Source of the DNA: Syncephalis plumigaleata
Lineage: Eukaryota; Zoopagomycota; Zoopagomycetes; Zoopagales; Piptocephalidaceae
DNA: 28,778 bases
Assembly (NCBI GenBank): GCA_025201365.1
Contig: JAIXMF010000161.1
Location: 1 to 28,778, forward strand
Reading direction: 5' to 3'
The position numbers and the translations under genes were made by a program. The notes under the pieces were generated by a model. That model saw only the letters and a list, made by a program, of their open reading frames with translations, made no database searches and was not told the DNA's origin. Below, piece after piece: positions 1,562-28,778 of this stretch. Every line of letters begins with the position of its first letter. Within the stretch, counting starts at the first letter, position 1.

Positions 1562-2780
1562 GGTCTAGTGCGGAGTGGTTGTACTAAATGACTGGTGAAT
1601 ACTGCTGAACCACAAGGTGCGGCAATAATACAGAGCAGAGGATAATCATGCATCATATCAGTAAATACACACACACACTTGACGATACGCTTTCAAATCA
1701 CAGACAGGCTTGTCACTTACATTGAATATGGCAATACGAGCATAATACGAGTATGCTCGACAAGTAGTAATAAAAGAGGGAATGTAGTAATAGACTAAAG
1801 CTCTAGAGTGTGTTCGGAAACTGAACCAGAATAGCGCTGGATCAAAACAATAACAAACAGTCGAGTGGCTAGTTTGCTATTGCTCACAAGCGTAAAGCAC
1901 GTATATTAAAGCGAACAGACAAGCTTGACTATATGCTTTGGAATAATTAGAATAAATAGATCAGATACAACTTTCTGATGTGCAACGATAATAGCATACA
2001 GTAAACAAAACACAAGAAAGAATGAAAGAAAGTGAGTGAGTGAGTGAGTGAATGGGGAAGGACAGCCAAATACACAGTTATACCAGACTGATCATTCATT
2101 AACTATAATCTGCTTCCGCATCATTGTTTTCTAGATGCCACCATCTGCTACATGTCAATAGAGTTTTCGAAGCATACATGCCACTTGTATGCTGCGATAG
2201 ATACGGCATACACGTCATGCTGCATCTCTAAATATGCTGTTGGATAATACGCGTCGACGGTGTTTCAAGATGTAAACAAATAATGTCACGTGATATATGC
2301 ATATCCACTCGAGATATAATGATGATTACATTCATAGCAGACTAGCATATCAGGAATAAAGAGATGGCTTCATTCTAACAAGTGTCGAGATAATAGAATG
2401 ATTACCATTTAGAATGGAGATTAGTGCATATTGTCCGGATGTTGTCTCTTGTATTAGCAATGAATAAAATGGAAATAATATGTGATCAATATTGTTAACA
2501 TTTGAACCAGTACTTGCACATTATTTCTAAAGTAGAAGGAAGCAATGGCTATAATGCTTAGAATACGACATATATTTATTCAATAAATGACTGAATGATC
2601 TTGTAGATATACTTGTTGTTGTTGTACCAAGGAATAATGACTTGAATGGCATGGACACTAAATGAGGATCTTGCACCAATACATTCTTGACTTGAATACC
2701 TATAATATCTACTTGATGATGTCCTTGTCTTGTTCTTTAATCATGATGGATTAGTATGAGTATAATTATTGTGGATTATT
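1562..2780. other. Intergenic region, AT-rich
   Basis: I see no convincing gene. The region holds the 5' flank of the minus-strand Ser/Thr-rich gene and the 3' flank of the minus-strand signal-peptide gene. There is a short GTGA microsatellite at about 2031-2052. A minus-strand AATAAA at about 2575-2580 could be a polyadenylation signal for the signal-peptide gene, roughly 210 nt past its proposed stop. Confidence 0.6.
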
Positions 2781-3918
2781 ACCTACCGCTTAATTCTATC
2801 GTCCAGATGATGTAGATTGTAGTGTGATTAGCGTATCGTAGATGACGATTGGAGTAATGACTTACACCCTATCATGCAGGAACATATGTGGATCATGTGC
2901 CGTATTAGTATTAGTGCGTCATAAATTACGGTCAGAATGATTACTTACATCCTATCATACAGGAACATATGTCATATTATTATTAGTGTATCATCATTTA
3001 CGGTCAGAATGGTATCTTACCTCCTATCGTATACAAACATCCGTGGATCATGCGTCATACTGTGATTAGTACTCGTTCATTACGGCCAGAATGGTAACTT
3101 ACACCCTATCGTATACAAACATGCGTGGATCATATGTCATATTAGTATTAGTGCGTCATAAATTACGGTCAGAATGTTAACTTACAACCTATCATACAGA
3201 AACATAGGATCATACGCCACGTTGTAATTAGTACCCCATTCATTATGGTCAGAATAGTAACTTACACCCTATTGTGTACAAACATACGTGGATCGTGCAT
3301 CATACTGTGATTAGTACTCGTTCATTACGGTCAGAATGGTAACTTACACCCTATCGTATACAAACACACGTGAATCATGCGTCATATTGTGATTAGTACT
3401 CGTTCATTACGGCCAGAATGGTAACTTACATCCTATCATACAGGAGCAGACATGGATCATGTGTCATATTAGTATTAGTGTGTTATAGACTACGATTGGA
3501 ATGGAAACTTACAAGCTGTTATACAGAAACGTATAGATTGTGGGAGATATTGTGGTTATTACACTCATTCATTACAATCAGATGGTAACTTACACTCTAT
3601 CATACAGGAACATATGTCATATTATTATTAGTGCGTCATAAATTACAGCCATAACGATAACTTACTCCAACTTATAAAACGCATTCACACATGATTTTGA
3701 TTTATGTTACGATTAGTATAGTACTTGCTATGGTTAATAGGATAGCTTACGAAGTTGTGCTAACAAATTAATAGGCGAAATAAACATTACAATGTGATTA
3801 GCATGTCAAAACAACCATAAATACACATAAACTTACTATCTATTGGTAATCATCGGTAGACAATGAAACAATAGGCTATGATTAGTACATCAATCGATAG
3901 GGTCACGGCCAGACATAC
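2781..3918 (-). repeat. Tandem array of 14 intron-like units (about 82 bp each)
   Basis: On the minus strand, donors start at 3918, 3836, 3750, 3665, 3593, 3512, 3429, 3347, 3265, 3185, 3102, 3020, 2948 and 2865, with a closing GTAGGT at 2786. Spacing is 72-86 bp, most often 82 or 83. Eleven of 14 donors are GTAAGT; the others are GTATGT, GTAAGC and GTAAGA. Thirteen of 14 units have CTAAT about 35 nt in, and all 14 end in AG just before the next donor, usually as GATAG. The sequence between these signals varies clearly, most in the units nearest exon 1 and in the last unit. Units at 3665 and 3020 share an 11-nt loss and are 72 bp long. Intron 1 of the signal-peptide gene is itself the first unit, which suggests that the array grew from that intron. 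Confidence 0.9.
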
Positions 3919-4012
3919 CACGACGGACCAGGACGGGACTAGCTTCAACAGAGACCAGACTGGCGACAGCGACAACGGCGACGGCAATAGCGAGAACGGC
4001 AGAGAACTTCAT
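2790..4012 (-). CDS. Putative small secreted protein with a signal peptide and an array of 3-9 nt micro-exons
   Basis: Exon 1 (4012-3919) starts MKFSAVLAIAVAVV and reads as a textbook secretory leader: Lys at position 2, a long Ala/Val core, then a VEA-S cleavage-like site and a dibasic RR near residue 30. It ends in phase 1 at a GTATGT donor. Downstream, 14 tandem units each hold a donor and an AG placed 3, 5 or 9 nt before the next donor; 13 of the 14 also have a CTAAT motif. The tiny exons lie at 3839-3837, 3759-3751, 3670-3666, 3596-3594, 3515-3513, 3432-3430, 3350-3348, 3268-3266, 3188-3186, 3105-3103, 3023-3021, 2951-2949, 2868-2866 and 2795-2787. Joined in order they stay open, add DTQLLGSLDGGVGEDGN and stop at 2792-2790, giving about 48 residues. 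The leader is well supported; the chained micro-exons are inference. Alternatives are one roughly 1.1-kb intron, or a truncated product ending in the 39-nt segment at 3875-3837. No homologue is recognised. Confidence 0.45.
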
Positions 4013-4183: not shown

Positions 4184-4189
4184 TTTATA
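4184..4189 (-). promoter_or_regulatory. TATA box upstream of the signal-peptide gene
   Basis: TATAAA on the minus strand lies about 172 nt upstream of the ATG at 4012. The stretch between is CT-rich on the coding strand (repeats of CTATT and TACTAC), as expected for a 5' leader. The position is plausible for a core promoter with a leader of roughly 140 nt. No transcription start can be seen directly. Confidence 0.45.
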
Positions 4190-27269: not shown

Positions 27270-28778
27270 TTATAACAAGAATTGGTCCCGCTTTGTATGA
27301 TTGCTGTCTATATCGTAATAGAATGAAGTATCCATATTGTTGGAGGCATGTCTGCATTCCTTGATCAATGTAGTCGACAGTTGTGCCACTACTAAAATGC
27401 TAGCCCGTCCCTCACAATGGTGAGAGCCAGTCCCGCGAATAACAGAGACAAGTATACATTGATCCTGATGACAGTCCTGTGATTGGAGTAGGGTTTAAAG
27501 GAATGGCTAATGGAACAGAAATGAGCACATGAACTAGAATCATAGAATGCATCATACTTACATTAACCAGGTTGGATTTGAGCATGTCCATCGGCATGGT
27601 CTCGCCAAATCGACGCATGCCAGCTGCAGCAATGATACGACGCGACATGGGCGACATGAATGAATCGGATCCATGAACGATCGTTTGTGAGGTGGTGGAC
27701 GACGACTGTTCTTGCGACTCTGTAGCATTCTTCGTAGACTCGATGGCATTGGATGGCGATGAACAGCGTCGAGTAGAAGGTGGTGTGTGTGGTGCACTGC
27801 TATGACAAGCACCGATGTGATTCACTGCTGACTCGCTCAAGGAACGCTCAGCATAACGAGGCTTGTGGATGCCACCATTGGTATGCACAGAGACACGAGT
27901 GCGTTTTCGCATCACTTGCTCATTCAGTCCCAGTTGAGGTGAGCTTAGTCGTCGTGTATCTCGTCGTTGTCGTTGTTGCGGTGATGCTGATACTGATAGG
28001 AATACATCATCGTCACTGTCATTGGATGTTGATGGATTTGGCATGGTGTGCGAGCGAGTTGCTAATGGCAGCACCTTACGCTTCAAGAACGAACAGGACT
28101 GAGTATTGTCCTCGATGCCGCTACGCTTACGCTTGATGCTGGGTGGACGGCAGAAACCATCGGCATCCTTTTCGTTGTCGATTCAGATGTGGCTGAGCAG
28201 AATAGTGATGGTGTAGAGCGGAATGCGGCCTTTTGCAATGAACTGGCTAATGAGGAAGTAGTAGTGGTAGTCGTGTTCTCCTTCTTAGCCGTTCCTTCAT
28301 TGATTGATGCTGCTTTACTCTTGATGAAGTAATTCTCGATGTTATAGGTCGGTGATATCTAATAGAACTATGATTAATAACTACTTGTGACAATATCATG
28401 AAGAAGAAGAGTATTAATACATACCTTACTACTATCATTCGAGCTATTCCCATTTCGTTTACGTTTTGATATGGGTGCTGGTGCCTTGAACGTATTCTTT
28501 GCAGGTACATTTGACTTGTTGGCCAATGAAGCATGCTTAAATGTGGATGTCGATGTTGATTTGGCACTAGTTGGTGGGGAGTCTTGCTTGATACCAATGC
28601 ATTAGTGACAGATTGCTTCTTGGTATTATGGCAAGTGCGAGTGGTGACAATGGTGTACGAGGATTTGACATCATATTGCTCTTCTTAATTAGAGAAGGAA
28701 GGAGTTTAGACTTGCTAGATGTCGATGTCTTTGTGCACTCATCATTGGCAATCCATAGTGCAGATGCATTCGCTGAAT
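27270..28778 (-). pseudogene. Second, frame-disrupted copy of the Ser/Thr-rich gene, with its 3' part
   Basis: Bases 28778-28188 match the left gene. Exon 1 (to 28425) has four single-base frame-breaking indels relative to the left copy, near 28577, 28627, 28686 and 28698. The intron (28424-28359) is intact, 66 nt. Exon 2 is open from 28358 to a stop at 28085-28083. A different frame is open from 28182 to 27562 and looks genuinely coding: KRKR and LKRK basic clusters, Ser-rich stretches, then MSRRIIAAAGMRRFGETMP and KSNLVN. A GTAAGT donor follows at 27561, and the acceptor at 27478-27477 continues 68 codons to a stop at 27272-27270. The two frames do not join cleanly, because a TGA at 28185-28183 lies between. 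The copy is either a decayed duplicate or carries errors at the sequence end. The 3' part may be the real end of the left gene. Function unknown. Confidence 0.55.
28188..28778. repeat. Right copy of the window-terminal direct repeat
   Basis: The partner of 1-618. It starts at TGTGGCTGAGCAGAA, immediately matching base 1 of the window, and runs to the final base. It lacks 17 bases of the TAG-repeat tract seen at about 70-95 and has a 6-base in-frame loss near 28550. Confidence 0.95.

Follow-up and report, generated by a model that had tools for sequence, protein, structure and literature searches.

One-codon exons in tandem arrays are predicted to encode a family of secreted peptides in the fungus Syncephalis plumigaleata

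Introduction

The ratchet points of recursive splicing leave no exon behind, the exons of schistosome micro-exon genes (MEGs) are longer than one codon, and a signal peptide followed by Arg-Arg is what we take to be the layout of fungal secreted peptides processed by Kex2. MEG products are described as being secreted at the parasite interface, with coding sequences that consist mostly of very small symmetrical exons (PMC4350168). Aphid bicycle genes, in the account on which we draw, are fast-evolving putative effectors with about 17 exons on average, and the megacycle gene is given there as having more than 100 micro-exons and about 2000 amino acids (PMC9168663). Isolated exons of 1 to 3 nt are also in print: a 1-nt exon in Arabidopsis APC11 (PMC4674806), another in Fusarium CYP621A (PMC12940212) and two 3-nt exons in lipS of Dactylellina haptotyla (PMC5639578); as reported, these cases indicate that the spliceosome can include such exons, in fungi too.

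Syncephalis is described as a genus of mycoparasites (PMC6784888, PMC10386755). The present analysis concerns Syncephalis plumigaleata (Zoopagomycota, Zoopagales) and a stretch of DNA of 28,778 nt, the window, which is the whole of contig C70 in an assembly of 32.6 Mb and 383 contigs. A preliminary description had placed at 2781-4012 a secretory-leader gene followed by introns parted by in-frame micro-exons, with the caution that the window alone could not prove coding. We consider it very likely that this gene belongs to a family encoding secreted, Kex2-processed peptides at one codon per exon, which would evolve by cassettes of one intron plus one codon.

Locus sampling and parsing

Used as a DNA query, the window array gave 106 matches genome-wide, which were grouped by eye into about 40 loci. 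The analysis covered 46 family loci (L009-L054), 45 of which were parsed; L047 was left out, its exon 1 having been missed by the search pattern. Loci were parsed with a dynamic programme that scores donor, branch point and acceptor, gives equal prior weight to exon lengths of 1-30, favours intron lengths near 79 and penalises an AG between branch point and acceptor. Analyses of peptide composition used 30 non-redundant arrays, from which 13 close copies as well as L048 and L053 were excluded.

Structure of the window gene

On re-reading the sequence, every detail of the array proved exact as first described. Introns 1-14 (Table 1) measure 69-80 nt; 11 of the 14 donors read GTAAGT, the others being GTATGT, GTAAGC and GTAAGA, and a CTAAT branch point is present in 13, the exception being AATAAC in intron 5. 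The gaps between the introns read, in order, ATA, 9 nt, 5 nt and then AGT CTT GAT GGT GGT GTT GGT GAG GAT GGT, 11 of them being triplets, and the joined frame is ...VRR-DTQLLGSLDGGVGEDGN-stop. The gene extends slightly past 2781, with its last intron at 2735-2786.

Table 1. Features of the one-codon-exon gene in window coordinates.
Feature	Positions	Strand	Remarks
TATAAA, likely promoter element	4184..4189	-	upstream of start codon; by eye
Exon 1, 94 nt	3919..4012	-	putative signal peptide and Kex2-type site: MKFSAVLAIAVAVVAVASLVSVEASPVLVRR plus first base of next codon
Intron 1, 79 nt	3840..3918	-	donor GTATGT
Exon 2, ATA	3837..3839	-	
Intron 2, 77 nt	3760..3836	-	donor GTAAGT
Exon 3, 9 nt	3751..3759	-	
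Intron 3, 80 nt	3671..3750	-	donor GTAAGC
Exon 4, 5 nt	3666..3670	-	brings frame to phase 0 (94+3+9+5 = 111)
Intron 4, 69 nt	3597..3665	-	first of one-codon array
One-codon exon AGT	3594..3596	-	Ser
One-codon exon CTT	3513..3515	-	Leu
One-codon exon GAT	3430..3432	-	Asp
One-codon exon GGT	3348..3350	-	Gly
One-codon exon GGT	3266..3268	-	Gly
One-codon exon GTT	3186..3188	-	Val
One-codon exon GGT	3103..3105	-	Gly
One-codon exon GAG	3021..3023	-	Glu
One-codon exon GAT	2949..2951	-	Asp
One-codon exon GGT	2866..2868	-	Gly
Terminal coding exon AAT TAA GCG	2787..2795	-	last residue Asn and in-frame stop
Intron 15, 52 nt	2735..2786	-	after stop, in presumed 3' UTR
AATAAA, likely polyadenylation signal	2575..2580	-	

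A close copy of the window gene lies on contig C1 (95% by BLAST); its exon 1 is broken, whereas the window copy is open (L010 and L009, respectively). The two ends of the window, 1-618 and 28188-28778, are direct repeats with 93.4% identity over 620 aligned columns, so that this contig may represent either a segmental duplicate in tandem or a product of the assembly. Scanning the window for non-coding RNA families returned nothing at the gathering score, and a tRNA search, made with a tool that names the bacterial code, returned 0.

Family size and the leader exon

The genome contains at least 150 copies of the signal-peptide exon (150 scored among 184 candidates). Near-identical loci, for example L028 and L029 at 99.4%, sit on small contigs, which suggests that part of this copy number is due to a second haplotype or recent duplication. 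Exon 1 shows a conserved M-K-F-S and a hydrophobic core, with the look of a signal peptide as judged from the aligned sequence, and the putative signal peptide is followed by an Arg-Arg dibasic site in all 15 of the aligned members; L036 is an exception at this site, with Arg-Pro.

Copies of the signal exon also occur in longer open frames of up to 154 aa, at G000:C340:439257-439367, C1:1327458-1327559 and elsewhere, and this leader seems to be shared with conventionally built genes such as P0022. Short metagenome proteins (P0017, P0019, P0021, P0023, P0024 and P0025) resemble exon 1. Five of these six also seem to read into the start of intron 1, which suggests that related species have the same first exon-intron boundary.

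Exons of exactly three nucleotides

Across the 45 parsed loci, 797 of 825 array exons have a length of exactly 3 nt and 819 a length divisible by 3; the array introns average 78.9 nt, with a range of 59-89 nt. Earlier parses run without the intron-length term gave 3-nt internal exons in 335 of 400 cases (20 loci) and 548 of 661 (35 loci). Counts that are independent of the parser agree on the spacing: the pattern CTAAY-N(20-50)-AG-NNN-GTAAGT occurs 1148+1052 = 2200 times genome-wide versus 166+122 = 288 times for the reversed pattern, while a gap of 4 nt gives 127 versus 263 reversed and a gap of 2 nt gives 224 versus 218. Three consecutive units are found 678+540 = 1218 times genome-wide, versus 4 in the control. 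Chance is excluded as the source of the 3-nt spacing.

Most of the coding region thereby lies in very small symmetrical exons, exon 1 being ordinary at 94 nt. The acceptor is not joined directly to the following donor, as it would be at a recursive splice site, 3 nt lying between AG and GT in the 797 cases given above. In L045 (G000:C113:160200-164000), it is the units with 9- and 12-nt exons, in place of those with 3-nt exons, that have been multiplied, 9 of these exons in a row preceding the 3-nt array. Viral contigs contain 30 stretches with a two-step pattern; no chain in them is longer than 3 units, and they were taken as chance.

Splice-site signatures of the arrays

The splice sites of the arrays hardly differ between close copies. 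Between the loci of 11 close pairs, which overlap in some loci, changes affect 6 of 1037 donor sites and none of 342 AG sites, as against 32 of 1203 sites in branch motifs and 560 of 10577 elsewhere in the introns. GTAAGT accounts for 678 of 825 array donors versus 12 of 22 donors of ordinary window genes, these 22 and the identities of their genes being judged by eye (P 0.003); such an excess would follow if U1 had to be recruited from the intron side only. No AG lies between the branch region and the acceptor in 820 of 825 introns, a figure partly built into the parser, and intron 1 has the donor GTATGT in 45 of 45 parsed loci, partly because the script sought GTATGT.

The triplets themselves carry a further signature. 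CAG and TAG together occur in 0 of 797 (11.8 expected), CAA is found 25 times, and an ordinary exon in the window has 9 CAG to 14 CAA. Because a YAG right behind the acceptor would compete with it, this absence is, on composition, a mark of a presumably active 3' splice site just upstream.

GC-AG introns with a GCAAGT donor occur in the arrays of L020, L027, L030 and L033, where they come after TGG or TTG codons wherever the parse shows them; an ordinary window gene also has an apparent GC-AG intron at about 20402, seen by eye.

Evidence that the triplets are codons

Stop codons are absent from the array triplets (0 of 797), although 17.5 would be expected from position-wise composition (P 2e-8), and the result is unchanged when close copies are dropped (0 of 639, 17.6 expected). 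In an earlier set of 646 triplets, which covers all 20 amino acids, out-of-frame reading yields 8 stops in 608 and 62 in 608. In 27 of the 45 parsed loci an open frame starts at the ATG and ends at a stop within the terminal exon. The exons before the array measure 94, 3, 9 and 5 nt in the window gene and elsewhere appear as variants of 9, 12 or 3, and 2 nt; in the clean-frame loci their lengths keep the same sum modulo 3, which places the array in phase 0. When about 40 paralogous loci are compared, the array triplets prove, at the level of sequence, to be codons. It was this comparison, and not the window, that settled their status, so the initial caution was right, and the same loci support the reading of a secretory leader followed by in-frame micro-exons.

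The remaining 18 of the 45 parsed loci do not have a clean frame. For L049 and L051 the stretch of sequence analysed ended early, and L048 spans only 900 bases; L036 and L045 have a stop just outside the parsed terminal exon, and exon 1 is broken in L010, L015 and L027. A 2-nt exon is contained in L022, L023, L034 and L043, and L030, L053 and L054 show an unusual exon 3 or 4. L014, L024 and L032 have lost the third acceptor AG, so that the frame enters the array and meets an early stop; this subgroup comprises either pseudogenes or genes for a different product. Taken together, the loci that lack a clean frame represent pseudogenes, errors of assembly or departures from the rule.

Predicted peptides

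The predicted products are diverse in composition. After Arg-Arg, the peptides of the window gene and L011 are short and rich in Gly and Leu, that of L028 is rich in Pro, that of L017 is rich in His (APDHHHGHHGGHH), and those of L021 and L044 are charged. Cysteine-rich peptides are predicted from L031 (APQDPNCTGVCCNVGKDGCQGWMRDWGN), L035 (AKDLPACEWDYNGYCCHSTPGGGFSCWDPRD), L050 and L052. Exactly four cysteines in the arrangement C-x(3-14)-CC-x(6-23)-C, each Cys in its own exon, are found in 10 of the 30 non-redundant arrays; in two of these ten, L022 and L034, a 2-nt exon was disregarded. The array begins with Cys in 13 of the 30, an outcome reached in 0 of 5000 within-array shuffles, and CC is present in 11 of the 30 (2 of 5000 shuffles). 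The spacing between cysteines varies between genes by whole codons.

A Pfam scan of 7 predicted peptides gave no match above the curated cut-off; the best was a weak match to a peritrophin-like chitin-binding domain (E 0.017, 15.7 bits against a cut-off of 22.1). The peptides are probably candidate effectors, or antimicrobial or signalling peptides, of a mycoparasite.

GenBank gene models and alternative use of cassettes

We compared 18 named S. plumigaleata proteins with the predicted array peptides of the analysed loci. Three carry long stretches of them: P0002 (BDF22DRAFT_685685) matches L018, P0007 (BDF22DRAFT_685769, partial) matches L049 and P0015 (BDF22DRAFT_657705) matches L021, with alignment scores of 217, 194 and 125 and shuffle maxima of 63, 68 and 67, respectively. 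For P0003, P0011, P0012 and P0018 the match is confined to read-through sequence from the 3' region; the other 11 proteins have no match above shuffles among the analysed loci.

The three models omit 10 codons inside the matched stretches, and these may correspond to exons that are truly skipped or may stem from the way the genes were modelled. Skipping on a larger scale, in which each transcript would use a different subset of the one-codon exons so that one gene yields many peptides, as in the schistosome model, would be favoured by the fact that any 3-nt exon can be skipped in frame and by the position of the omitted codons, mostly before weaker donors. The same position has another reading: a donor other than GTAAGT follows 7 of the 10 omitted codons versus 12 of 100 included ones, so that the models could be score-driven predictions and not transcript evidence, and the omissions modelling artefacts. 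Since the cysteine pattern and the lack of stops fit constitutive inclusion equally well, we regard such alternative use as less likely than not, though a serious possibility; if real, it would give each locus a very large coding capacity.

Evolution by cassettes

The preliminary description suggested that the number of units used could set peptide length; the variation observed here is in the number of units in the DNA, which is not the same in all genes or even in close copies. Close copies differ by whole cassettes: L013 and L016 by two, L011 and L012 by the position of one. When each cassette is compared with its nearest counterpart in another gene, the codon is the same in 88 of 800 cases, as against 3.6% by chance, and among cassette pairs scoring 90-105 bits it is the same in 35 of 99. 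Sharing of this kind, above chance yet incomplete, indicates that codons travel with their introns but change.

An origin by introner-like or mobile introns, inserted between all the codons of an older gene with few introns, is improbable on these data. The introns are indeed homologous to one another, and some isolated copies of the signal exon do lie in longer open frames. Copies are nevertheless confined, as far as seen, to tandem arrays within one gene family (as judged from the first 100 places in each of the genome-wide pattern lists), and the tendency of similar introns to share a codon, together with the whole-unit differences between close copies, fits duplication of cassettes over insertion between codons.

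The rate at which codons change presents a mixed picture over 11 pairs, and a general rule that codons evolve faster than introns was dropped. In six close pairs, codon sites changed at 0 of 261 positions and introns at 168 of 6100; in the other five the figures are 41 of 189 and 392 of 4477, part of the former being due to cassette shift in the alignment. L038 and L040 have all 17 codons in common despite intron differences at 83 of 1175 sites. L035 and L037 show codon changes of two and three bases (TAT to ATC, TAT to ATG), with 2 of 77 and 3 of 77 differences in the flanking sequence.

By a simple mark-up of AG-NNN-donor steps, three further loci have 4 (L085), 11 (L086) and 13 (L087) steps. 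L085 (G000:C1:2254900-2258000) and L086 (G000:C1:2472600-2474900) are secretory genes whose introns are, by eye, unlike the main repeat, which suggests that the one-codon architecture may predate the present repeat; exon 1 of L086 repeats DHVPPAAFRSLERR and variants of it, in units that end in Arg-Arg. In L087 (G000:C1:1742200-1744200), cassettes with GCC alternate with AAG cassettes and yield Ala-Lys repeats; duplication here seems to have involved two cassettes at a time.

It is very improbable that the arrays are a tandem intron repeat inside one large intron running from exon 1 to the terminal exon, its triplets untranslated and its spacing copied, for although all units of an array are homologous, so that spacing could be copied, and related cassettes recur across genes, the absence of stops, the cysteine pattern across genes, the near-constancy of donors and AG in close copies while other intron sites drift, the presence of the codons in GenBank models, and the spacing kept at 11 places among the dissimilar introns of L086 all speak against it. 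Satellite DNA or a single large intron was likewise considered and rejected in view of stop avoidance, the cysteine pattern and splice-site constraint.

A model for splicing and growth of the arrays

In the reading that we favour, of secreted peptides encoded one codon per exon, exon 1 would supply the signal peptide and Arg-Arg, and the mature peptide would be encoded almost wholly at one codon per exon. The cassette would consist of one intron (about 79 nt, with GTAAGT, TACTAAY and an AG about 43 nt further) and one in-frame triplet. Established splicing knowledge is the basis for an intron-defined, ordered removal of introns of about 79 nt. The spliceosome would remove the introns successively, probably from 5' to 3', each splice adding 3 nt to the upstream exon ahead of splicing at the following donor; the order would follow because 3 nt leave no room for U1 on a donor together with the complex on the acceptor before it. 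With strong intronic donors, the codon would be free, not being needed for pairing with U1. Unequal exchange between homologous introns, or slippage between them, may lengthen and shorten the arrays, so that gain or loss of a cassette would add or remove one amino acid and never shift the frame.

A broader interpretation, which we put forward as a tentative possibility, treats exon and codon as one system in which unequal exchange adds, drops or swaps residues and cassette skipping gives in-frame variants, the whole forming an evolvable and perhaps combinatorial peptide arsenal. Part of the same tentative interpretation is that the codons of some pairs outpace the surrounding introns.

If the one-codon reading is true, the family would define how small the exons of an entire protein can be, with nearly every mature residue in its own exon in at least dozens of genes, and the spliceosome would have to handle some 40 consecutive 3-nt exons. 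The arrays would offer a natural test of ordered splicing and intron definition, and they suggest a selective use of introns, namely protection of the frame during gain or loss of codons. They would also represent a class of secreted peptides that gene finders largely miss, as the GenBank models examined here are partial.

Comparison with known systems

A full-text literature search, most subscription journals and bioRxiv preprints outside PubMed Central lying beyond its scope, found no arrays of one-codon exons. The likeness to schistosome MEGs, as these are described, lies in architecture only, namely in small symmetrical exons and a putatively secreted product; in Syncephalis each array exon holds one codon, between introns that are tandem copies of each other, and no kinship in sequence is expected. 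With the bicycle and megacycle genes, in the account cited, the family shares fast-evolving putative effectors and many micro-exons, but bicycle exons are given as phase 2 and far longer than a codon, whereas the Syncephalis array exons are in phase 0 and 3 nt long. The reported ultra-small exons occur as one or two among ordinary exons, in contrast to dozens in a row here. Recursive splicing and stwintrons are similar in having a donor at or close by the preceding acceptor and a likely ordered removal; unlike recursive splicing, each step in Syncephalis would leave a codon that is read. Kex2-processed fungal peptides have the signal peptide and Arg-Arg in common with the family, and the repeats of L086 are parted by Arg-Arg, but the gene architecture differs. 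Because exon and codon coincide and an intron plus a codon is duplicated as the unit, we rate the predicted arrangement as a new kind of gene architecture and, if it is counted as a micro-exon gene, as the extreme of that kind.
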